Below, piece after piece: positions 49,778-63,716 of a stretch of 64,000 nucleotides of DNA (position 1 is its first letter; each line of letters opens with the position of its first letter). The position numbers and the translations under genes were made by a program. The notes beneath the pieces were generated by a model. The model saw only the letters and a program-made list of their open reading frames with translations, did not search any database and was not told the origin of the DNA. The DNA comes from Hyphomicrobiales bacterium (GTDB taxonomy: Bacteria; Pseudomonadota; Alphaproteobacteria; Rhizobiales; Rhizobiaceae): positions 1 to 64,000 of the forward strand of contig UEIJ01000012.1 of assembly GCA_900470195.1 (NCBI GenBank), read 5' to 3'.

Positions 49778-50056
49778 TTAAAATTCCTTGTGGATCATCA
49801 GTTAGAACAGATCATGTGATCCCTTTATATGTAGGCATTCTTTAATGCAACCTTTGATTGCATAAGCAGAATTATGGAACTTCACTGAAGCCTCGAGACG
49901 ATTAAGCGTGTCGCAGTCGCCGAGCTCGATGACACCGCCGGGAATGAACACTGCTGTTGCTCGCAGGGCAAGTCTTGGGCTAGGCTGGTCGCTGATCTTG
50001 GATCGTGGTTGAAACCCTTGTCCCGATACAGTGCCTACCAGCATGACGAGACTTGA
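49778..50056. other. traR upstream region
   Basis: No gene recognised. AT-rich near 49800-49870 with two small palindromes, GATCATGTGATC (49810-49821) and ATGCAA/TTGCAT (49845-49850, 49858-49863). They are candidate operator sites for control of traR. A weak 80-codon minus-strand frame here is not convincing. Confidence 0.4.
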
Positions 50057-50128
50057 ATGTCAAGGGACGCGGCCGCTCGTCTGGAGGCGCAAGGGGTGGA
50101 ACTCAGCGGCAAGGGAGAGATCCAATGA
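50057..50128 (+). pseudogene. ccmE: C-terminal remnant of ccmE (cycJ)
   Basis: A 23-codon frame ending at 50128 whose TGA overlaps the ccmF ATG (ATGA). The residues RLEAQGVELSGKGEIQ resemble the C-terminal end of rhizobial CcmE, whose gene normally precedes ccmF (order cycH-J-K-L). An in-frame stop lies just upstream at 50054-50056, so only the tail survives. Homology is judged by eye from memory and context. Confidence 0.5.
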
Positions 50129-52110
50129 TCATTGAGCTTGGCCACTATGCCCTGGTGCTGGCACTCGCCACCTGTCTTGTCGTTTCCATTTTGCCCGTGA
50201 TCGGCGCACGGCGCGGTGACGCAGCAATGATGGCGGTGGGTACCACCGGCACCTATGCAATGTTCGTGCTCGTCGCCTTCTCCTTCGCGGCCCTCACCTA
50301 CGGCTACGTCTTCTCCGACTTCTCGGTGCAGAACGTCTTTGAGAACTCTCACTCCCTCAAACCGATGATCTACAAGGTATCCGGCGTCTGGGGGAACCAT
50401 GAAGGCTCGATGCTGCTCTGGGTGCTGATCCTGACGCTGTTCAGCGCCATGGTCGCCTTTTTCGGCACCAATCTCCCGGACCGGCTGAAAGCGAATGTGC
50501 TGGCCGTACAGGCCTGGATCACGACGGCCTTCACGCTCTTCATTCTTCTGACGTCCAACCCCTTTATTCGCCTGTCGCCGATCCCGGCCGAGGGTCGGGA
50601 TCTGAACCCGGTTCTGCAGGATATCGGCCTCGCGATCCATCCGCCTCTGCTCTATCTCGGCTATGTTGGCTTCTCTGTCTGCTTCTCCTTTGCGATCGCC
50701 GCTCTTATGGATGGCCGCATCGATGCCGCCTGGGCCCGCTGGGTTAGGCCCTGGACGCTAGCTGCCTGGGTGTTCCTGACGGCCGGCATCGCCATGGGCT
50801 CCTACTGGGCGTATTACGAGCTCGGCTGGGGAGGCTGGTGGTTCTGGGATCCGGTCGAAAACGCCTCCTTCATGCCATGGCTGGCGGGCACGGCCCTTCT
50901 GCATTCGGCTTTGGTCATGGAAAAGCGTGATGCCTTGAAGATCTGGACGGTACTGCTCGGCATCATCGCCTTCTCGCTGTCGCTGCTCGGCACCTTCCTC
51001 GTGCGGTCGGGCGTGCTAACCTCGGTGCACGCCTTTGCGAACGACCCGACGCGCGGCGTCTTCATTCTCGGCATTCTCGTGATCTTCATTGGTGGGGCCT
51101 TCACGCTCTTTGCACTGCGCGCGCCGATGCTGAAGGCCGGCGGCTTGTTCCAGCCGATCTCGCGTGAAGGTGCGCTGGTTCTCAACAACCTAATTCTCAC
51201 CGTCTCCACCGCGTCTGTTCTAATCGGCACGCTTTATCCGCTGCTTTTGGAGACGCTGACGGGCGAGAAGATCTCGGTCGGTCCGCCCTTCTTCAACATC
51301 ACCTTTGGGTTGCTCATAATACCCCTGCTGCTCGCGATGCCCTTCGGGCCATTCCTCGCCTGGAAGCGCGGCGATCTACATGGTGCGCTGCAGCGGCTTT
51401 ACGTGGCGGCGGCGGTCTCGCTCATGCTTGGCCTCGGTTTCTGGTACGCCCAGAATGGTGGGCCTGTCATGGCGGTGGCAGGCCTTGCGCTTGCCTTCTT
51501 CGTCATGGGCGGCGCGGTATCCGATCTCTGGTATCGGTCAGGCTTTGGTAAGCATCCGCTGTCCACCGCCTGGAGTCGACTGAAAGGCCTAACCCGGTCG
51601 GCCTTCGGCACGTCACTTGCGCATTTCGGCATGGGTGTGACCGTGCTCGGCGTCGTGGCCGTCACCACCTTCGAGACGGAAACTGTGATCGAGATGAAGC
51701 CGGGCATGACGGTGGAGGCCGGCGGTTATGTCGTGACCTTCGACGGCATTCGCGCCGCGACGGGACCGAACTACAGCGAAGACCAGGGGCATTTCACCAT
51801 CCGCGAAGATGGTGTTGAGGTGGCCGATATCTGGTCGTCGAAGCGGCTCTACACGGCCCGCCAGATGCCGACGACAGAAGCCGGCATCGTCACGTTCGGC
51901 TTCAGCCAGCTCTACATATCGCTGGGTGACCCAATAGCCGCCGGGGGCATTGTCGTACGCTTCTGGTGGAAGCCCTGGATCCTCTGTATCTGGTCCGGTG
52001 CCATCGTGATGATGGCTGGTGGCATCGTCTCGCTCTCTGATCGCCGTTTGCGAGTCGGAGCGCCTAAGCGAACCAAGGCCTCGATAAGGCCGTCGTTAGG
52101 GGTCAGCTGA
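50125..52110 (+). CDS. ccmF: Cytochrome c maturation protein CcmF
   Basis: 661 residues from the ATG at 50125, full length for CcmF. About fifteen hydrophobic segments are seen. The tryptophan-rich heme-handling signature WGGWWFWDPVENASFMPW is complete, and conserved segments such as SVWGNHEG-type SGVWGNHEGSM and LLGTFLVRSGVLTSVHAFA are present. CcmF with CcmH attaches heme to apocytochrome c in the periplasm. Here it lacks ccmI, ccmH and an intact ccmE, so it is an extra or captured copy starting at a ccmE tail. Confidence 0.95.
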   Translation: MIIELGHYALVLALATCLVVSILPVIGARRGDAAMMAVGTTGTYAMFVLVAFSFAALTYGYVFSDFSVQNVFENSHSLKPMIYKVSGVWGNHEGSMLLWVLILTLFSAMVAFFGTNLPDRLKANVLAVQAWITTAFTLFILLTSNPFIRLSPIPAEGRDLNPVLQDIGLAIHPPLLYLGYVGFSVCFSFAIAALMDGRIDAAWARWVRPWTLAAWVFLTAGIAMGSYWAYYELGWGGWWFWDPVENASFMPWLAGTALLHSALVMEKRDALKIWTVLLGIIAFSLSLLGTFLVRSGVLTSVHAFANDPTRGVFILGILVIFIGGAFTLFALRAPMLKAGGLFQPISREGALVLNNLILTVSTASVLIGTLYPLLLETLTGEKISVGPPFFNITFGLLIIPLLLAMPFGPFLAWKRGDLHGALQRLYVAAAVSLMLGLGFWYAQNGGPVMAVAGLALAFFVMGGAVSDLWYRSGFGKHPLSTAWSRLKGLTRSAFGTSLAHFGMGVTVLGVVAVTTFETETVIEMKPGMTVEAGGYVVTFDGIRAATGPNYSEDQGHFTIREDGVEVADIWSSKRLYTARQMPTTEAGIVTFGFSQLYISLGDPIAAGGIVVRFWWKPWILCIWSGAIVMMAGGIVSLSDRRLRVGAPKRTKASIRPSLGVS

Positions 52111-54057: not shown

Positions 54058-54366
54058 ATCGCTTCACCAAATCAAATCGCAGGGGACAAACAGAAACTCT
54101 TTTTGTGTACGATCTACACGATCTATCGGATGTTTTCCTTCGCATGGCCTGCCTGGTGAGTGCACGACCATCGGACATCTGGTTCAGTTTGGCATAGCCC
54201 GCGCACGAGCTGAGGCTGCCGTTGTTTTCCGACAGCCTCTACATGACAGCGCCAGGGGAATGCGGATAACCGGAGTCAGCTCCGACATGGCACAGGCCTC
54301 GCATGCCTGACCTCACGACTTCAAGCCGCTGAACTGTCGGTGGGGAGACTTCACGGTTTTCTCCGC
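54058..54366. other. Gap between L,D-transpeptidase and DedA genes
   Basis: 309 bp without a recognisable gene. Likely holds the DedA promoter. Nothing else seen. Confidence 0.35.
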
Positions 54367-55068
54367 CTAAGCCTCAGAGAAGCGAGGCAGGCTGGTAACG
54401 ACGATGGGGGTTTTGCCTGGCACTCGACCATACAAGTCGACCACGTCCTGATTGATCATCCGGACACACCCTGAGGATACCGACTTGCCGATCGTCCACC
54501 ATTCCGGCGACCCATGGATGCGATAAAGCGTGTCCTCGCCATTCTGGAAAATGTAGAGCGCGCGCGCGCCCAATGGATTCTTGAGGCTAGGAGGCATACC
54601 GCCATTGGCAATGCTGTAGGGCGCAAGTTCTGGCTGTCGAGCGACCATCTCGTCAGGTGGCGTCCAGCGTGGCCACTGGCGTTTGTACTGGATGACCCCC
54701 TTGCCCGACCATTCGAACCCCTGCCGGCCGAGACCGACCCCGTATCGCATCGCCTGTCCGCCCTCATAAGTCAGGTAGAGAAAGTAATTGGCCGTATCCA
54801 CGACCAATGTGCCTGGCCGCTCCCCGGTCGGATCACTCACCATCTGGCGGTAGTAGCGCTTGTCGATCTTCTGGTAGGGTATAGCAGGCAGCGGGAACTG
54901 TTCGTTTGGAATTGGTCCATAAGTGGTCTCCAGGACCGGATGTACGATGGGTACGATTTCAGATCGTGATGTCTCTAGGGTCGTTGTCGAGCAGCCAGTC
55001 AACACAGCCGCCGCTGCCCCAGTACTCCCGATAACGAAGCCTCGTCGTGTCAATTTCCCAGACTGCAA
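54367..55068 (-). CDS. L,D-transpeptidase (YkuD), Tat-type lipoprotein
   Basis: 233 residues with a TTG start at 55068 preceded by GAGGAAA. The N-terminus carries a twin-arginine-like LTRRGFVIGSTG and a lipobox LTGC. The YkuD catalytic motif is complete: HGSPEWWTIGKSVSSGCVRM with the nucleophilic Cys. It should form 3-3 cross-links in peptidoglycan or attach proteins to it. It follows the SCO gene by 32 bp and probably shares its MerR-type promoter. Confidence 0.92.
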   Translation of the reverse strand: MQSGKLTRRGFVIGSTGAAAAVLTGCSTTTLETSRSEIVPIVHPVLETTYGPIPNEQFPLPAIPYQKIDKRYYRQMVSDPTGERPGTLVVDTANYFLYLTYEGGQAMRYGVGLGRQGFEWSGKGVIQYKRQWPRWTPPDEMVARQPELAPYSIANGGMPPSLKNPLGARALYIFQNGEDTLYRIHGSPEWWTIGKSVSSGCVRMINQDVVDLYGRVPGKTPIVVTSLPRFSEA

Positions 55069-55100
55069 TGTATTTCCTCTCGAAGGTTGAAGCTTCTGGC

Positions 55101-55718
55101 TTACGGGCCGGTCATGAGATTGCGGATCTTCTTCATCCGAACCTCGCGGGATTCATGCATGTCGAGCGTTCCTTTGAAGCTACCATTGGCGTCCATCATG
55201 TATACGCCAGCCGTATGGTCCATCGTGTAGCTTCCATCTTCGGTCGGAACCTTGCGTGCGTAGGCGGAGAAAGCTTTCACAGCCGTCGCTGTTTGCTCCG
55301 GCGTTCCCCGAAGGGCAAGGATTCGACGGTCGAAGGATGTCATGTATTCGTTCAGCAACTGCTGAGTATCTCTCTCTGGGTCAACGCTGATGAAAACAAC
55401 GTTGAAACCGCTCGCAGCGGGCCCGAGTTCACTCATTAGGTCACTCAACTCGAACAGCGTTGTGGGGCAGATGTCAGGGCAGTGGGTAAAGCCAAAGAAC
55501 GCCAAGTACGGCTTTCCTTTGAGCACGGCATTGTCGATGACTTGGCCACGGTGGGAAACCAACTCAAATGGCCGACCGACCGCAGGGGTGGAGGTCGTGT
55601 CTGACACACCCAGGCGTCTGCTAGTATCCGATTGCGACACATAGCCGATGAGCAATAGCAATGTGATGATCGCAACCACGCACCACGCCACCAGTCGAAA
55701 CGCTTTGAGAGATTCCAT
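55101..55718 (-). CDS. SCO1/SenC family copper/redox protein
   Basis: 205 residues from the ATG at 55718. One N-terminal membrane helix (about 8-26) then a thioredoxin-like domain with the SCO motif: FTHCPDICPT (Cys80, Cys84), PERDTQQLLNEY and the conserved His in TMDHTAGVYMMD. SCO proteins deliver copper to oxidase CuA or reduce thiols in the periplasm. A MerR-type promoter lies 45-75 bp upstream. First gene of a two-gene operon with the transpeptidase. Confidence 0.93.
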   Translation of the reverse strand: MESLKAFRLVAWCVVAIITLLLLIGYVSQSDTSRRLGVSDTTSTPAVGRPFELVSHRGQVIDNAVLKGKPYLAFFGFTHCPDICPTTLFELSDLMSELGPAASGFNVVFISVDPERDTQQLLNEYMTSFDRRILALRGTPEQTATAVKAFSAYARKVPTEDGSYTMDHTAGVYMMDANGSFKGTLDMHESREVRMKKIRNLMTGP

Positions 55719-55762
55719 ATAATTCCCTGCCGATATTCGCCCCGGATGAACCGTCCGGAGCA

Positions 55763-55793
55763 CTCCTAATCCCTCTAGCAGCTTGAGGTTCAA
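55763..55793 (-). promoter_or_regulatory. MerR-type promoter of SCO/transpeptidase operon
   Basis: On the minus strand: TTGAAC (55793-55788), a 19-bp spacer holding CCTCAAGCTGCTAGAGG, then TAGGAG (55768-55763). The long spacer and inverted repeat are the signature of MerR-family promoters, here of CadR/PbrR-like pattern. Confidence 0.72.
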
Positions 55794-55875
55794 GGCGAGT
55801 TCAGAAGAAAATTGCAATTCTCCTCAGACCTACCGCTGCAGAGCCCCGGAAATTGCTGCAGACCGGAAACCGCCC

Positions 55876-55906
55876 TTGACCCTCAAGCTACTAGAGGTTT
55901 CATACT
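55876..55906 (+). promoter_or_regulatory. MerR-type promoter of dsbB-dsbA-czcD
   Basis: TTGACC (55876-55881), a 19-bp spacer containing the dyad CCTCAAGCTACTAGAGG, then CATACT (55901-55906). The expected transcription start falls only a few bases before the dsbB ATG at 55919, suggesting a nearly leaderless mRNA. Confidence 0.78.
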
Positions 55907-55918
55907 GACAACGCATCA

Positions 55919-56371
55919 ATGAACGACAGGAATGGCCGAGCAGTGGTAAAATCTAACGACGGGGCATGGCTTGCGATCTTTAGCGCGTGGATGATTGCCA
56001 TGAGTTCGACGCTCGGCGCATTGTTCATCGGTGAGGTCATGGGACAAATGCCATGCGATCTCTGTTGGCACCAACGAGCCTTCATGTTTCCACTGGCAGT
56101 CCTGCTCGCCGTCGCCGCCTTCCGCTCTGATGCCCGTGCCTGGATCTATGCAGTTCCGCTGGCAGCGGTGGGATGGTTGATCGCGGCATTTCACAACCTC
56201 CTCTACTTCAATATCATCCCCACGGCCATCAAGCCTTGCGGCCAAGGGCCATCCTGCTCGGGCGCGGGTATGCTCCTCTTCGGAACCCTCCCCATTCCGC
56301 TCCTGTCGCTTGGCGCGTTTACCGTCATCATCGCCCTACTTCTAATCGTGCGCCGGAGAACACCAGCATGA
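55919..56371 (+). CDS. dsbB: Disulfide bond formation protein DsbB
   Basis: 150 residues with four hydrophobic helices. The first periplasmic loop has the redox pair CDLC (Cys46, Cys49) in MPCDLCWHQRAF, and the second loop has PCGQGPSC. DsbB reoxidises DsbA using quinone. The start lies 12 bp after the -10 element of a MerR-type promoter. Its stop overlaps the dsbA ATG (ATGA), so the pair is coupled. Confidence 0.9.
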   Translation: MNDRNGRAVVKSNDGAWLAIFSAWMIAMSSTLGALFIGEVMGQMPCDLCWHQRAFMFPLAVLLAVAAFRSDARAWIYAVPLAAVGWLIAAFHNLLYFNIIPTAIKPCGQGPSCSGAGMLLFGTLPIPLLSLGAFTVIIALLLIVRRRTPA

Positions 56372-57030
56372 ACAGACGCACTTTCGTCATCGCTTCGGCT
56401 TCAGCTGCGATCGCAGTTTTCGCAGGAGGTGCCGCCCTCTATAGTGGGCTCACACCAGAAGCTGAGCCAGCGCCCTCCCCAATGCCGGGGAACAATACCC
56501 TTGTCAGAATGCACTCGCCGGTCATGGGGCCGGTTTCGGCGCCTGTGACAATTGTCGAATTTTTTGATCCGTCATGTGAGGCGTGCCGGGCATTTTATCC
56601 GCTCGTAAAGCAGATGATGGCGCAGACCGGAACCGACGTGCGGCTCGTCCTGCGATACACCGTATTCCACGAGGGTTCCGACGATGCCGTGCGCATATTG
56701 GAGGCCGCGCGCAAACAGAACCTGTTTGAACCGGTCCTAGAAGCGATACTGGAACAGCAGCCGGTCTGGGCCGATCATGGCAAGCCAGATCTGGAAAAGG
56801 CATGGCAGATTGCGGCAATGGCCGGACTTGATGTCGAGCAGGGCAAGAAAGATGCGGTGTCCCCCGCGATCGACAATATTCTTGCCCAGGATATGGCGGA
56901 CGTTCAGGCCAACAATGTGAAACAGACCCCGACATTTTTCGTCAACGAAAAGCCTCTGACAGAGTTCAGTCCGCAAGGTCTTTTCACACTGGTGAAGGCT
57001 GAGATCGATGCCAGCAAGGCAGGATCCTGA
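56368..57030 (+). CDS. dsbA: DsbA-like periplasmic thiol oxidoreductase
   Basis: 220 residues from the ATG at 56368. Signal segment with RRTFVIASASAAIAV. The thioredoxin-like domain has FFDPSCEACRAFYP, so the active pair is Cys70-Glu-Ala-Cys73 instead of the CPHC of classical DsbA, and a cis-proline loop KQTPTFFVN. The acidic CEAC site suggests a different redox potential. It works with DsbB directly upstream and is followed after 23 bp by czcD. Confidence 0.9.
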   Translation: MNRRTFVIASASAAIAVFAGGAALYSGLTPEAEPAPSPMPGNNTLVRMHSPVMGPVSAPVTIVEFFDPSCEACRAFYPLVKQMMAQTGTDVRLVLRYTVFHEGSDDAVRILEAARKQNLFEPVLEAILEQQPVWADHGKPDLEKAWQIAAMAGLDVEQGKKDAVSPAIDNILAQDMADVQANNVKQTPTFFVNEKPLTEFSPQGLFTLVKAEIDASKAGS

Positions 57031-57053
57031 CCTCGGAGACAGGACCGGAATTC

Positions 57054-57977
57054 ATGAGTGGACATCACCACGATCATGGAGCGGATGCCGGAGACAAGCG
57101 TATAGGGGGAGCAATTCTCGTAAACGTGTTCCTTACCTTTGCGCAGATTGCCGGCGGCATCTTCTCCGGCAGTCTTTCCCTGATCGCGGATGCGCTCCAC
57201 AACTTCAGTGACGCTGCATCACTTGTGATTGCGTATGGCGCACGCCGAATCTCGCGCCGCCCTTCCGACGAAGGGATGACGTTCGGCTATGTTCGTGCCG
57301 AAATCGTCGCATCGCTGATCAACTATACGACTTTGATCGTCGTTGGGCTCTATCTCGTGTATGAAGCGGTCATGCGGTTCATCACACCGGAGCCGATAGA
57401 AGGGTGGACGGTCGTGATCGTCGCAGGCATCGCGCTCGTCATCGATTTGATCACAGCCATGCTCACCTACACCCTTTCAAAAACCAGCATGAATATCCGC
57501 GCCGCTTTCTTGCACAATGTGTCGGACGCCCTTGGATCGGTGGGTGTTATCATTGCCGGCACGCTTGTGCTGATATACGGCTGGACATGGATTGACCCGG
57601 CGATCACCCTCATGATCGCAGGCTACATACTCTGGCAGGCCTTCACTGAGATCGGAGGATCGATCAGGATCCTGATGATGGCGGCGCCTGAGGACGTGGA
57701 TGTGAACAAACTTGTTTCAGACATGCGTTCCGTCGAAGGCGTCCAGGAGGTGCACCATGTCCATGTGTGGCGGATCGATGAAGATCACAAGGCATTGCAA
57801 GCGCATCTCGTTGTGACGGAGTCATCTCTGCGCAGTGTTGCTGAAGTGAAAGGCGCAGTGCGAAAAATCCTGCGGGACAGGCACGGTATCGACCACAGCA
57901 CTCTGGAGATCGAAACGCCAGAGGACGGTTGCGAAGACGGCGTACAGGTCATCGGTCATAATGTTATAGAGACCTGA
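57054..57977 (+). CDS. czcD: Cation diffusion facilitator CzcD (Zn/Cd/Co efflux)
   Basis: 307 residues with six hydrophobic segments and an N-terminal His patch (HHHDHG). The metal sites in helices 2 and 5 are HNFSD (His49, Asp53) and HNVSD (His154, Asp158), the His-Asp pairs typical of zinc-type CDF carriers. The C-terminal cytoplasmic domain includes EVHHVHVWRID. It exports divalent cations by proton exchange. Third gene of the dsbB-dsbA-czcD operon and convergent with the interrupted czcO. Confidence 0.95.
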   Translation: MSGHHHDHGADAGDKRIGGAILVNVFLTFAQIAGGIFSGSLSLIADALHNFSDAASLVIAYGARRISRRPSDEGMTFGYVRAEIVASLINYTTLIVVGLYLVYEAVMRFITPEPIEGWTVVIVAGIALVIDLITAMLTYTLSKTSMNIRAAFLHNVSDALGSVGVIIAGTLVLIYGWTWIDPAITLMIAGYILWQAFTEIGGSIRILMMAAPEDVDVNKLVSDMRSVEGVQEVHHVHVWRIDEDHKALQAHLVVTESSLRSVAEVKGAVRKILRDRHGIDHSTLEIETPEDGCEDGVQVIGHNVIET

Positions 57978-57979
57978 GA

Positions 57980-58520
57980 CTAGAGGCTTTGCAGGCACCG
58001 TTGACGGATATGCTCGACGATGAAAGCCGCATCGTCAGCGGCACCTGCGATCAGACCAGAGGCACGGTTACGCTGCCAAGGTCGGCCAACATAGTAGAGA
58101 CCGGCAACAGGCGAAATCCCGTTGGAGTGTATTGGGACAGCCCGAGCATCAACTGCACCCTCGACTTCAATCCAGGGGAGCTCATCGGCATAGCCTGTCG
58201 CCCAAACTATGGATCTGATGTTCTCGCTCGATCCGTCGGCGAAACTTGCCCCGCGGTCATGGATCGCAGCCAGTCTCGGCTTCAGGATTACCCCCAACCG
58301 CCTAAGTGAAGCATCGTCATTGCCACGAACAGGGAATGGATCCTCACGCCTCATCCTTCGCCCGATGATCCCCTGCGCCGATACACGTAGAAGGCCGAGC
58401 TGCCCCAGCCATACCCACAAACTGCGTCCGAGGATCTTCTCCGGTAAAAGCCTGCGCTTTCGCCCGCGTGCAAGCAGCACCTGTTGAAACCCAGCCATCG
58501 CAATTGCCACGTCCCTTCCA
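57980..58520 (-). pseudogene. czcO: CzcO-type flavoprotein, C-terminal part (cut by IS21)
   Basis: The C-terminal half of an NAD(P)/FAD-binding monooxygenase-like protein, starting GRDVAIAMAGFQQVLLARG and containing the WATGYADELPW motif typical of this family. It is separated from its N-terminal half (61160-61704) by an IS21-family element. Deleting the element and one CTTCCA duplication joins GDGASG to RDVAIA in frame, giving a protein of about 359 residues. CzcO-type proteins are found beside CzcD. Confidence 0.9.
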
Positions 58521-58686
58521 TGCGCGGCGACAATCAAGGTGAGACACAGCGTCAATCAGGATGAGACTAGGCGGCGGGGATGTGACGAAGGGAGGGCGTA
58601 GCCCGACCGGAGTTACATCCCCGCCGCGGCGCAATTTTCGGCGTCTCATGATCGCGGTTGGCCCAGTAGCGTGGGTGATTTTCTGA

Positions 58687-61109
<2,423 letters not shown>

Positions 61110-61159
61110 GAATCTCATCCAGATTGTCGCTTGCGTCTCATCCTGATCGTCGCGCGATA

Positions 61160-61704
61160 CTTCCACTCGCGCCATCTCCGACAACAAGAACAGGGCCTTT
61201 CGCCACCGAGCCCGGATTGCGGAACTCAGCTACGTGCATCTGCTGAATGTCGGCCGGGAGCAGTTTCGACAATCCAGGAATTCGCGGTGTCGAAAATGCC
61301 CCCGTGGCAACGATGACGGTATGACATGTGATTCGATCGCCGTCTTGCGTTGACGCCACGAAGAGACTGCCTACCTTCTCAAGTCGGACGACCTTCTTCG
61401 AACTGATGACCGGAAGTTTATGGAAGGAAGCATACCGCCGCAGATAGTCAGCAAACTCATCCTTTCCAGCAAAGCCATTTGCATCACCAACCAGGGGCAT
61501 ATCCGAGAGCGCGCTGATGCTGCGAGGGGTAAAAAGTGTGAGGTTGTCATATCTGTTGCGCCAGCTGTCTCCGATTTTTATGCCAGCATCGACAATCAAG
61601 AATGTCAGGCCCTGCTTCTTCAAGGCATACGCCGCGGCGAGCCCGGCTTGCCCCGCCCCGATAATCAAGATGTTGGTCCGCACTGCATGCCCCTCAAGCA
61701 ACAT
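61160..61704 (-). pseudogene. czcO: CzcO-type flavoprotein, N-terminal part (cut by IS21)
   Basis: The N-terminal half with the FAD-binding motif IIGAGQAGLAAAYALKKQG, then IGDSWRNRYDNLTLFTPRSIS and the start of the second nucleotide-binding fold VLVVGDGASG, at which the IS21-family element inserted. Translation now runs a few codons into the element and stops. It is the third gene of the operon 62969-61704, behind the 56-residue membrane protein. Confidence 0.92.
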
Positions 61705-61709
61705 CGTCT

Positions 61710-61880
61710 TTACCCATCAACGGCTGGGGACGTTACGATTACATTGGGTTCAGGCCTTGCCTCTCGACCAATATGCGAGAAGCTCAAGAGAAAGACCGCC
61801 ACAACGAAAATCGTGAGCACTGCCAACACAATCCAGTTATTGCGCCGTATCTTCTTAATCCGATCATCGGGCTGGGCCAT
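61710..61880 (-). CDS. Small single-pass membrane protein, 56 aa
   Basis: A 56-residue frame: a basic N-terminus (MAQPDDRIKKIRRNNW), one strong membrane helix (IVLAVLTIFVVAVFLLSF) and a short periplasmic tail ending SPAVDG. It lies 3 bp after the transpeptidase-like gene and 5 bp before czcO, so it is almost certainly part of the operon. Orientation by the positive-inside rule is N-in. Function unknown; it might be a subunit or an adaptor for the neighbouring lipoprotein. Confidence 0.75.
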   Translation of the reverse strand: MAQPDDRIKKIRRNNWIVLAVLTIFVVAVFLLSFSHIGREARPEPNVIVTSPAVDG

Positions 61881-61883
61881 AAT

Positions 61884-62969
61884 TCAGTCTCCTGTCGCAC
61901 TTGCGGCGGTCACCCCGTCGCCAGACCTGGCTTTCTTCTTTTGGAATGGGTCAGCCAACGCCGCATCTGGTCTGCTGACCGGATATTTTGTGCCCGAAAT
62001 GCGAGCCGCAAGTCGGTCCGGACCCTCTTTCTTAAGGAGTGCGCGGAAACTCGGATGCATTCCGCCATCCACATAGGATGACACCGTCGAGCCGCCGGCC
62101 TGTTGAAGAGCAGCCTCAAGCCTTTGGGTTTCTTCGGCCATGCGGGCCATCAGTGCGGGATCAGAAGAAGCGGCGCTTGCGGGGCAAGCCTCCAGTGGGT
62201 AACGGGGCTCTCCGCCCACGAACTCTTTGTTGAACATGTAGCGGCGGCCACACACCGAGACTTTTGGTTGCTCCCGGGTCAATTCGAAAACGTCGTATCC
62301 CTCCTTCAGCGTCCGCCAGAACGACAGGTTTTCGTTGTCTCTGTGCAGCGTCATATTTTCCGTCGTCATTCGGAAAGGATAGGCCTGGACCTGGAAACGC
62401 TCCTGTCCCGATGAAAGTGCCTTGGCGACGATCGCATATATTTCACCGACGCCCTGGTCTGTCAGCGCAAAGCAACCGGAAGAGGAGCAAGCACCGTGGA
62501 CCATCAGCGCCTCGCCGGTATAGCCGAGTGCCGACTCAAGCCTGTTTGGATAACCCAGGTTGAAAGATACATAGTACTGCGATTTAGGATTCAGCATCCC
62601 TTTCGAAATGTGGTAGAACCCCTCGGGCGCCTGGCGATCACCTTCCTTGACCTTGGGGCCTAGCTTCCCGGACCACCTGCACATCGGATATGTCTTGAGC
62701 AGCGCGTAGCGCCCACTTCGGTCGATCTTCCAGACCTCGAGCTCGCTTTCCTGCTTGAAGATCCTGATGAGGACAGGACTCTCCGCTGCCATACCCTTCT
62801 TTGACATCTCTGCCAGCATCTTGCTCGACAGTTCGGGTGCCCTGCTGGACAGGTCGTCCAGCCCCATGTCTGAAACACATCCGGATAGGGAGACAGCTAT
62901 AAACGCTCCAATGCAGGCATTCTGCGCGATCAGAAGTGCTCGCTCAGTCAAATTCTGAAACCAATTCAT
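61884..62969 (-). CDS. L,D-transpeptidase-like lipoprotein (YafK/DpaA type)
   Basis: 361 residues. The signal peptide has a lipobox LSGC. The catalytic pattern HGACSSSGCFALTD, with two Cys, is the version seen in the YafK/DpaA branch of YkuD proteins, some of which cut proteins off peptidoglycan. The C-terminal 100 residues, with a KKK-rich tail, are extra. It is first in an operon with the 56-residue membrane protein and czcO, behind a MerR-type promoter at 63108-63138. Confidence 0.88.
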   Translation of the reverse strand: MNWFQNLTERALLIAQNACIGAFIAVSLSGCVSDMGLDDLSSRAPELSSKMLAEMSKKGMAAESPVLIRIFKQESELEVWKIDRSGRYALLKTYPMCRWSGKLGPKVKEGDRQAPEGFYHISKGMLNPKSQYYVSFNLGYPNRLESALGYTGEALMVHGACSSSGCFALTDQGVGEIYAIVAKALSSGQERFQVQAYPFRMTTENMTLHRDNENLSFWRTLKEGYDVFELTREQPKVSVCGRRYMFNKEFVGGEPRYPLEACPASAASSDPALMARMAEETQRLEAALQQAGGSTVSSYVDGGMHPSFRALLKKEGPDRLAARISGTKYPVSRPDAALADPFQKKKARSGDGVTAASATGD

Positions 62970-63107
62970 TTCGTCACTCTTCGCGCTTTCAATGAAACCC
63001 TGCCAAAATCACCCGGAAGATGCCGAGCGCACCACGGCAGCCGGCAGTCCAAGAAGGGGGGACGACCGCACGACGCCGCATCGAACAAATCCTTAGCCGC
63101 CGGTATA

Positions 63108-63138
63108 AATATAGGACCTCAAGTAACTAGAGCTACAA
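63108..63138 (-). promoter_or_regulatory. MerR-type promoter of transpeptidase-czcO operon
   Basis: Minus strand: TTGTAG (63138-63133), a 19-bp spacer carrying CTCTAGTTACTTGAGG, then TATATT (63113-63108). Same dyad as the promoters at 55763 and 55876. The gene starts about 130 bp downstream. Confidence 0.72.
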
Positions 63139-63182: not shown

Positions 63183-63716
63183 CTACCCATCTTTGGGCAC
63201 CGGACCAGGCACGACATCGAGCAGAGATTTATCAACCAGGGGAGTTACCTTCATCGGGCTTGCCCCGGAGGTGCGCATCCGGTCCATGTCTGCTGCAGTG
63301 AGGTAATCGAGCTTGGTGATCAGAGTTTTATAGTAGGCTTGCAGACCAGTCCGCTTGTTCATCCGCTCCACCAGATCTAACCTCAGGGTGTCAGCTGCGA
63401 ATTCGGGATCGGTAAGAACCGGTGTGGACACCAGTGTCGCGATCAATTCGTCCGTCAGTTCTGCCTCCGGACTGGGACTAGCGCGGAGTGCCTCGTCATT
63501 TGCGGTCATCGTCACTTCCGCGACGACGTAACCGTCAACCTTGTTCTCCCGAATGATCGGTACGGTCACCATCGCCGACTTAACCACCTCATGTTCGGTC
63601 AGCCTAGGAGACTGCGCCTCAACCTGTTTGGGCGCCGGTGCCCACTGGAAACCAGCGTAGACAGCAACCAAACACACTACGACACACCACACCCCGGAGA
63701 ATGCAATCTTCCACAT
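63183..63716 (-). CDS. Hypothetical membrane-anchored periplasmic protein, 177 aa
   Basis: 177 residues with one N-terminal membrane helix (about 5-25, GVWCVVVCLVAVYAGFQW) and a soluble, presumably periplasmic domain including KVDGYVVAEVTMTAN and MNKRTGLQAYYKTLITKLD. No known motif recognised; the size and layout are those of small flagellar or cell-wall accessory proteins, but this is not claimed. It lies upstream of the MerR-type promoter and may be transcribed separately. Confidence 0.65.
   Translation of the reverse strand: MWKIAFSGVWCVVVCLVAVYAGFQWAPAPKQVEAQSPRLTEHEVVKSAMVTVPIIRENKVDGYVVAEVTMTANDEALRASPSPEAELTDELIATLVSTPVLTDPEFAADTLRLDLVERMNKRTGLQAYYKTLITKLDYLTAADMDRMRTSGASPMKVTPLVDKSLLDVVPGPVPKDG

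Follow-up and report, generated by a model that had tools for sequence, protein, structure and literature searches.

Regulators of the MerR family are known to sit between the -35 and -10 elements of promoters with a long spacer, and the metal changes the DNA in such a way that the promoter becomes usable (PMC1526738). Among the closest described systems are CadR, whose motif in the case of PaCadR is a 17-bp inverted repeat of two 8-bp units (PMC12301328) and whose genes often have no upstream dyad, i.e. are often not autoregulated (PMC1526738), and the ZntR-ZntA pair, which is also in print for alphaproteobacteria (PMC10800456, the references of which name Agrobacterium work). RNA-seq of Mesorhizobium STM 2683 and STM 4661 showed that zinc and/or cadmium raise CadA, a ZitB-type cation diffusion facilitator (CDF) and signal peptidase II, and that thioredoxin-like and disulfide-isomerase-like genes as well as a multicopper oxidase are also induced (PMC3668242); the link between zinc and signal peptidase II is thus in print (PMC3668242; compare PbrC). 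The type of system is therefore already known, namely CadR/PbrR/ZntR with a printed architecture. Here we describe a related system on a stretch of 64,000 nucleotides from a Hyphomicrobiales bacterium (the window, i.e. positions 1-64000 of contig C27 of a 5.15-Mb draft genome). An original prediction, made from the letters of the window, had claimed that three MerR-type promoters tie eight redox, cell-wall and metal genes into one regulon. Judging from the sequences, we consider it likely that the window holds part of a CadR/PbrR-like heavy-metal regulon of five promoters, located on what is most likely a repABC plasmid and probably activated by a MerR protein encoded at 66755-67171.

All three predicted 31-bp promoter elements are present exactly as described, each with the dyad inside a 19-bp spacer. 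Promoter 1 (55763..55793, minus strand) has the -35 element TTGAAC, a 17-bp dyad and the -10 element TAGGAG; promoter 2 (55876..55906, plus strand) has TTGACC and CATACT; and promoter 3 (63108..63138, minus strand) has TTGTAG and TATATT at the respective positions. The dyad is a 17-bp palindrome of 8-1-8 architecture, i.e. two 8-bp units around one base, and the variable position inside each half is mostly A or T, e.g. CCTCAAGC-T-GCTAGAGG. The dyad had been given as a near-identical CCTC-AG..CT-GAGG, and a common pattern, TTGNNNCTCNAGNNNCTNGAGG, is indeed shared by all three sites, but site 3 starts with GCTC rather than CCTC. TTGNNNCTCNAGNNNCTNGAGG occurs three times in the window, while exact copies were found in none of 60 dinucleotide-preserving shuffles of the window; with one mismatch allowed the shuffles gave a mean of 0.017 and a largest value of 1. 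Sites 1 and 2 have imperfect -10 hexamers, and in the dsbB promoter (promoter 2) the -10 element ends 12 bases upstream of the mechanical ATG. The spacing could be followed in 134 unique exact boxes from the fetched loci described below: a TA is found at 19 bp in 110 of them and at 17, 18 or 20 bp in none, 15 of the 134 have a TA at 21, and the fuller TANNNT stands at 19 in 37. The long spacer is therefore a real property of the site, and the -10 element is often imperfect. MerR-family promoters have their palindrome between the -35 and -10 elements and a spacer of 19 or 20 bp, and all five sites on C27 conform to this with 19 bp.

The extent of the regulon was examined in the entire 5.15-Mb genome. 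A search that allowed up to one mismatch returned six copies of TTGNNNCTCNAGNNNCTNGAGG, all exact, vs. no forward and one reverse match of the reversed pattern. Five of the six sites fall in an 18-kb stretch of C27, which we refer to as the island. Two of these are full sites beyond the window, namely promoter 4 (65441-65471, plus strand) ahead of lspA and promoter 5 (73867-73897, minus strand) ahead of a P1B ATPase operon. The sixth site, the sole copy off C27, lies on contig C58, presumed to be chromosomal, where it is flanked by a P1B ATPase gene and a merR that points the other way. The claim that the promoters form one MerR-type regulon is well supported, but the count of three has to be extended to five promoters on C27 plus the site on C58. 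The link of the regulon to metal efflux also found support; the metal (Zn/Cd/Pb) and the role of the envelope genes are inferred. C27 is most likely a repABC plasmid because it carries a repC gene; the database relatives discussed below came from a plasmid-only collection and hence say nothing on this point.

The gene groups face the promoters as had been claimed. Promoter 1 precedes a SCO1/SenC family protein (55101..55718, minus strand; PF02630, 6.4e-48), for which the start at 55718 is more likely by sequence than that of the mechanical open reading frame (ORF), which reaches to 55817 and overlaps the promoter, and, as the second gene, an L,D-transpeptidase of the YkuD type (LDT; 54367..55068, minus strand; PF03734, 8.9e-20) with an N-terminus that looks lipoprotein-like. 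Promoter 2 precedes a DsbB-like disulfide oxidoreductase (55919..56371, plus strand; PF02600, 2.5e-8), a DsbA-like thioredoxin-fold protein with a CEAC motif (56368..57030, plus strand; PF13462, 3.5e-20 and PF01323, 1.9e-9) and a ZitB/CzcD-like CDF (57054..57977, plus strand; PF01545, 1.3e-45, with TIGR01297 over its cut-off). Promoter 3 precedes a 361-aa lipoprotein-like protein (61884..62969, minus strand) nearest to LdtF/DpaA/YafK, a 56-aa membrane protein (61710..61880, minus strand) with a weak likeness to the cytochrome oxidase assembly factor Coa3 (PF09813, 20.4 bits, cut-off 27), and a flavin monooxygenase gene, 'czcO'. The 361-aa protein had been called a transpeptidase-like lipoprotein, and it does have a YkuD-type active site; however, it stays below the cut-off of the nearest model (NF040599 for DpaA/LdtF/YafK, 221.7 vs. 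365 bits) as well as, narrowly, that of PF03734 (23.2 vs. 23.4 bits), and in NCBIfam the DpaA/LdtF class bears the name of a peptidoglycan amidase, not of an enzyme that makes cross-links. A small gene is found in the same position as that of the 56-aa protein in the relatives.

The list of eight genes needs to be amended in two respects, since 'czcO' is broken by an insertion sequence and the genes behind promoters 4 and 5 have to be added. Promoter 4 is followed by lspA, encoding signal peptidase II (65537-66067, plus strand; PF01252 over its cut-off, TIGR00077 at 94.8 bits with a cut-off of 73.95), and promoter 5 by a P1B ATPase (71584-73839), a PCu(A)C protein (70966-71478) and a 235-aa protein (70252-70959), all on the minus strand and beyond the window. 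The ATPase passes the cadmium subfamily model TIGR01512 (509.1 bits, cut-off 313.5), and its top-scoring models are Zn/Cd/Hg/Pb transporters that stay below their cut-offs (784.8 vs. 1005 and 696.5 vs. 1240 bits), so that its choice of metal is not settled by the models. Pfam searches of the genome found two LspA, two DsbB and two SCO genes, and because all six genome boxes are placed we can say that in each pair only the C27 copy is boxed; there are 15 YkuD matches in the genome, two of which belong to the island. No Pfam match was found for h177 and the 235-aa protein. Conserved proteins of this sort, with no Pfam match, are encoded at 63183-63716, without a box, and at L009:8252-8959, after the ATPase-PCu(A)C genes.

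The 'czcO' gene consists of a 5' part (61160..61704, minus strand; the third gene after promoter 3) and a 3' part (57980..58520, minus strand), recognized by alignment to intact homologues, and the two are separated by an IS21-family element (58521..61159, plus strand; istA at 58705-60219, istB at 60216-61109). The identity of the element follows from this alignment and from IS21 matches in plasmid records, and a 6-bp overlap of the alignment at the insertion fits a target duplication. The insertion is probably recent, since the sequences on either side of it are 98.1% and 99.6% identical to the R. cremeum locus (L098), which lacks the interruption. An intact homologue found elsewhere is nearest to the MSMEG_0569 and ArsO models, below the cut-off.

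As no merR is visible in the window, it had been predicted that the regulator lies elsewhere on the replicon or in the chromosome, and there is indeed a candidate merR at 66755-67171 (plus strand) on the replicon, which starts 2.75 kb beyond the window. Among the NCBIfam models the encoded protein scores best with CadR-PbrR (TIGR02047, 112 bits), ahead of the Zn, Cu and Hg models, though this lies under the model's cut-off of 151.45 bits; nor does the protein reach the cut-off of any Zn, Cu or Hg MerR model in NCBIfam (E. coli-type ZntR, TIGR02043, 95.7 vs. 167.95 bits; CueR, TIGR02044, 101.6 vs. 147.4 bits). The zntR-like regulator of C58 behaves similarly, with 109.1 bits against TIGR02047, likewise below the cut-off. 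CadR/PbrR proteins are marked by a cysteine at the 77-79 position and a C-terminal cysteine pair, and conserved Cys78 marks the divalent-metal sensors among MerR proteins. The island MerR shows the CadR/PbrR cysteine pattern: Cys78 and Cys121 are invariant in six MerR sequences, including the island and C58 forms, while the intermediate cysteine is kept in the five island forms and is one column off in the C58 regulator. The solved structure nearest to the island MerR by sequence is that of an unnamed MerR-family regulator (5gpe), with CadR coming next. We think that the island MerR is probably the activator of the five promoters, in which case it would bind all five sites.

Another explanation accepts the promoters but assigns their control mainly to the zntR-like regulator of C58, the island MerR being redundant or meant for another site. 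The two regulators are 46% identical overall and have a letter-identical recognition segment, GVKVPTIRYYEQ, and the sole box off C27 lies between the C58 regulator gene and its ATPase gene. A search of the replicon for a merR with the same dyad in its promoter had been suggested, and it did find the merR, but the region upstream of the gene has no good dyad (the best has two mismatches), so autoregulation does not point to the island merR; autoregulation as a proof was therefore dropped and relatives were used instead. In these relatives the island merR travels with the boxed genes in seven of nine cluster homologues (L014-L017, L020, L021, L058, L059 and L078), the exceptions being L020 and L078, where no merR match was found in the fetched stretches (only 14 kb in the case of L078), and an island MerR at a level of at least 79% identity always comes with an exact box. 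In view of this we consider control mainly by the C58 regulator unlikely. Cross-talk between the two proteins is probable, on the other hand, since the C58 regulator matches the island MerR in its recognition segment and acts through an identical site.

The last figure comes from a survey of 80 loci (1.54 Mb) fetched by MerR similarity, in which peptide patterns from the recognition segment were used and the best 80 were kept. In 58 of the 80 loci the core dyad CTCNAGNNNCTNGAG, with up to one mismatch, is found no more than 200 bp ahead of merR, usually beginning around 30-37 bases ahead of the start codon, compared with 2.4% of 1600 random windows and with none of the 80 loci for the reversed pattern. 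Exact full boxes number 39 vs. 0 for the reversed controls, and 67 vs. 2 if one mismatch is allowed. All 15 loci with a MerR identity of at least 79% have at least one exact full box. Four still more distant MerR loci gave an exact CTC-type box in Sulfitobacter (L178) and a box with one mismatch in Sphingobium (L181), and no CTC-type box in Phaeobacter (L179) or Roseibium (L180).

The conservation of the dyad ahead of homologous clusters, on which the original prediction had staked itself, was borne out both in the fetched loci and in an alignment of clusters. Seven plasmid records contain the cluster; they match 73% of the query with an identity of 92.0-93.4%, and the remaining 27% corresponds in size to the insertion element. 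Twelve records cover at least 80% of the region 54360-58000 at 74.8-94.4% identity. An alignment of the SCO/dsbB intergenic region, which took in 12 of the fetched clusters, gave a mean majority identity of 0.90 and 0.94 for the two dyad cores and 0.61 for the rest. Over the fetched loci, we then counted the unique genes standing first in their operon that have a box at a distance of 20-300 bp upstream. The window itself stands outside these loci, while R. cremeum L098 and L009 are inside; the count disregards reference matches that begin beyond residue 25, genes closely preceded by a reference gene on the same strand, and repeated upstream sequences. Features were assigned by tblastn with a reference set that came largely from the island and from Shinella, genes outside the set appearing as blanks, and loci L058-L097 were hand-picked from family matches, mostly for several boxes. 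A box was found upstream of SCO (11/14), lspA (7/9), dsbB (14/19), dsbA (2/3) and dpaA-like genes (15/23), together 49/68, which is not an independent-sample figure as some loci were chosen for their boxes and the sequences are related. The corresponding values are 43/78 for P1B ATPases, 10/48 for CDF, 4/11 for HGSNAT-like, 1/1 for TlpA and 1/3 for EptA genes, and only 1/11 for PCu(A)C, 1/14 for LDT and 8/135 for merR genes. Fourteen neighbour classes (h177, BTLCP, Nramp, DUF882, MFS, ACR3, DedA, PBP2, Lnt, CzcO, cell-wall hydrolase, CopC, multicopper oxidase and sm56) gave 0/73. Since the loci are related and partly chosen for boxes, the contrast between the gene classes carries more weight than the rates.

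These counts bear on the possibility that, within a genuine regulon, the envelope genes are passengers without a role in metal tolerance. The islands are gene-rich and partly mobile, and Nramp, BTLCP and PBP2 genes travel along unboxed. The envelope genes, however, carry boxes of their own, in different gene orders and in several genera, and SCO is boxed even in another bacterial order. In Shinella (L018) the gene order varies, with exact boxes ahead of dsbA-isomerase-DpaA-LDT-lspA and of dsbB-dsbA and one-mismatch boxes ahead of PCu(A)C-SCO and of a TlpA-like gene; a genome of another family (L037) has an exact box ahead of dsbB-dsbA-CDF; and a Sulfitobacter plasmid (Rhodobacterales, L178) has one ahead of SCO, divergent from merR. 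Moreover, a second operator faces the same kinds of genes: in Nitratireductor and Roseibium the ATPase, PCu(A)C and SCO genes on one side and DsbB-DsbA on the opposite one face a putative dyad of CadR-like type, which is related to ours but distinct from it, and the Roseibium locus adds CcdA and LspA. We therefore hold it to be rather improbable that the envelope genes are mere passengers. At L019:8774-14496 and L180:3438-10393 we noted two CadR-like dyads of the CTATAG/CTGTAG type, together with a different MerR and, alongside, a Tn3-family transposase.

The search was also extended to 297 genomes of the order, 63 of which contain matches to the exact pattern. Among 30 loci from this search a metal-type regulator or a reference gene is near the box in 26, and merR is directly divergent in 18 of the 30. 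No regulator or reference gene was found in L028, L032, L036 and L055, which look like chance matches, and L029 and L030 have a 38% SCO match only. Family-wide, the raw count of genomes with a box match is 135 of 297.

A number of side observations were made in these islands. One island, with seven distinct boxes (two of them exact, the other five with one mismatch), is common to L063 (G537:C1:200000-219999) and L064 (G439:C1:616000-635999), whose genomes belong to different genera, and in the genomes G354 and G462 the same two exact boxes recur, separated by 14811 bp; this suggests that the common island is a mobile element. Boxes are also found ahead of cytochrome b ORFs (L060:6720, exact; L063:7285, one mismatch), with around 40-50 bases from the box start to the ORF start, and a one-mismatch box lies ahead of a Cox11/CtaG gene at L066:1927. 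Such boxes ahead of cytochrome b and Cox11 genes hint at a wider upkeep of membrane machinery in other islands. At L016:27333, on an Agrobacterium plasmid, a one-mismatch box precedes a phosphoethanolamine--lipid A transferase gene. Near our island, a ccmF gene (cytochrome c maturation; 50053-52110) that is also present in a Rhizobium sp. WL3 plasmid has no box.

Several points weigh against a CadR/PbrR-like regulon activated by the island MerR. Firstly, there are the sub-threshold score of this protein and the bare upstream region of its gene. Secondly, fetching the 80 loci by recognition-segment patterns favours this very specificity, and of the 65 loci with a more distant MerR (64-73% identity) just 10 have an exact full box; a box with up to one mismatch is found in 27 of them, and the fetched stretch of the other 38 has none. 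Thirdly, the order-wide search gave 79 exact matches vs. 31 for the reversed control, so that single matches outside the islands are partly due to chance, and the partial choice of loci for their boxes has already been mentioned. Fourthly, the genes of the Mesorhizobium study were matched to ours by family, not by orthology or box. Finally, a response to Zn/Cd alone would leave the presence of two copper proteins, SCO and PCu(A)C, unaccounted for, and the ATPase is just over the cut-off of the copper subfamily model TIGR01511 (407.2 vs. 397 bits).

The last point, together with multicopper oxidase, CopC and CopD neighbours in Shinella, would fit a copper stress regulon of the CueR/HmrR type. 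Yet the half-sites CTC-AG differ from the ACCTTCC.. printed for CueR/HmrR (PMC1526738), the ATPase scores higher with the Zn/Cd models, and the island MerR scores less with CueR than with CadR-PbrR and has kept Cys78; a copper regulon is thus very unlikely, and the identity of the regulator as CueR was rejected, as neither the model score nor the half-sites fit. An E. coli-type ZntR was also rejected, given the 22-bp/20-bp architecture of that system and the score against TIGR02043. The weakest candidate is a SoxR-type redox regulon, which is suggested by the likeness of CCTCAAG..CTTGAGG to the SoxR box, by the thiol-redox genes downstream and by a genome protein that is SoxR-like by eye (L007), but the SoxR box is 18 bp long with an even centre, the even-centred version of our dyad (with a four-base centre) has one two-mismatch match elsewhere in the window, where chance alone would give 3.85, and the MerR beside these loci has metal-type cysteines with pumps as neighbours, so we practically discard it and the box as a SoxR box. 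The metal of the CadR/PbrR-like regulon is most likely Zn/Cd/Pb, as suggested by the conserved cysteine, the CadR-like site, the best-scoring models of the ATPase and the zntA-like partner on C58.

Putting these elements together, we propose that MerR would sit on the 17-bp palindrome inside the over-long 19-bp spacer. Upon binding a divalent metal (most likely Zn/Cd/Pb), it would deform the DNA and thereby make the -35 and -10 elements accessible to RNA polymerase. This would jointly switch on the P1B ATPase with PCu(A)C, the CDF pump, DsbB-DsbA, SCO with the L,D-transpeptidase, the DpaA-like lipoprotein with the small membrane protein, and signal peptidase II. Metal exported by the pumps would arrive in the periplasm, where thiols, the maturation of lipoproteins, the assembly of oxidases and cell-wall attachment may suffer from it, and the envelope genes would be present for this reason: the co-induced enzymes could sustain disulfide formation, lipoprotein maturation, peptidoglycan/outer-membrane attachment and oxidase assembly. 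The original prediction took efflux to be coupled to periplasmic thiol oxidation and peptidoglycan cross-link remodelling; that these are the purpose of the regulon is a supposition, as is the protective purpose proposed here. Upkeep of the respiratory chain may also be part of the regulon's role, given SCO and PCu(A)C here and the boxes before Cox11 and cytochrome b genes elsewhere. If the scheme is right, the regulon suggests what zinc or cadmium pumped into the periplasm damages and names candidate targets. As the operator is short and, inside such islands, specific, regulons of its kind can be read from genomes, and the host's own regulator may switch on a newly arrived plasmid.

We also speculate, though on balance we would not expect it to be true, that the regulon supplies 'spare parts': under Zn/Cd stress the mobile element would provide second, perhaps metal-tolerant, versions of envelope enzymes that excess metal poisons (LspA, DsbB/DsbA, SCO and L,D-transpeptidase/DpaA; in other islands Cox11, cytochrome b and peptidyl-prolyl isomerase), and host or island regulators would read one portable operator. 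What suggests this is that only the C27 copy is boxed in the LspA, DsbB and SCO pairs and that similar kinds of genes face the CadR-like operator in Nitratireductor and Roseibium. Zur controls spare zinc-free paralogues, and if the speculation holds, the present regulon would be the zinc-excess mirror of these Zur-controlled genes.

It remains to compare the general features of the locus with those of the known systems. Among the matches listed in a literature search (titles and opening abstract lines, with subscription journals largely outside), there was no description of a single operator that connects efflux with genes for Dsb, SCO, L,D-transpeptidase/DpaA and LspA. The Mesorhizobium STM 2683/STM 4661 response shares with our locus the induced CadA, CDF, signal peptidase II and thioredoxin-like and disulfide-isomerase-like proteins, while the available sections of PMC3668242 contain no shared operator for these Zn/Cd-induced genes; in the M. 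ciceri locus L116 the ATPase and merR are present and the cadA-ccdA order given in those sections was not found. The E. coli-type ZntR is a MerR protein as well and serves Zn/Cd/Pb efflux, but its printed architecture is a 22-bp palindrome with a 20-bp spacer (PMC1526738) as opposed to 17 bp in 19 bp here. The alphaproteobacterial ZntR-zntA system, represented by the pair on C58, is closer: the operator, the 19-bp spacer, the recognition segment and the P1B ATPase as a target are the same, whereas the pair has one site and the island regulator, 46% identical to it, is located among five promoters. Also close in architecture are CadR-cadA and PbrR-pbr, with which the island shares the 17-bp 8-1-8 repeat (compared with PaCadR in architecture alone, PMC12301328), the 19-bp spacer and the P1B ATPase target; the signal-peptidase member is shared with pbr (PbrC there, lspA here) and a regulator gene that is often not autoregulated with CadR (PMC1526738). 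The differences are a regulator that scores below the cut-off, five dispersed promoters, and Dsb, SCO, L,D-transpeptidase and DpaA-like targets. In other words, MerR metal regulons are usually described as a sensor and a pump, while here the same site also fronts genes of envelope assembly.

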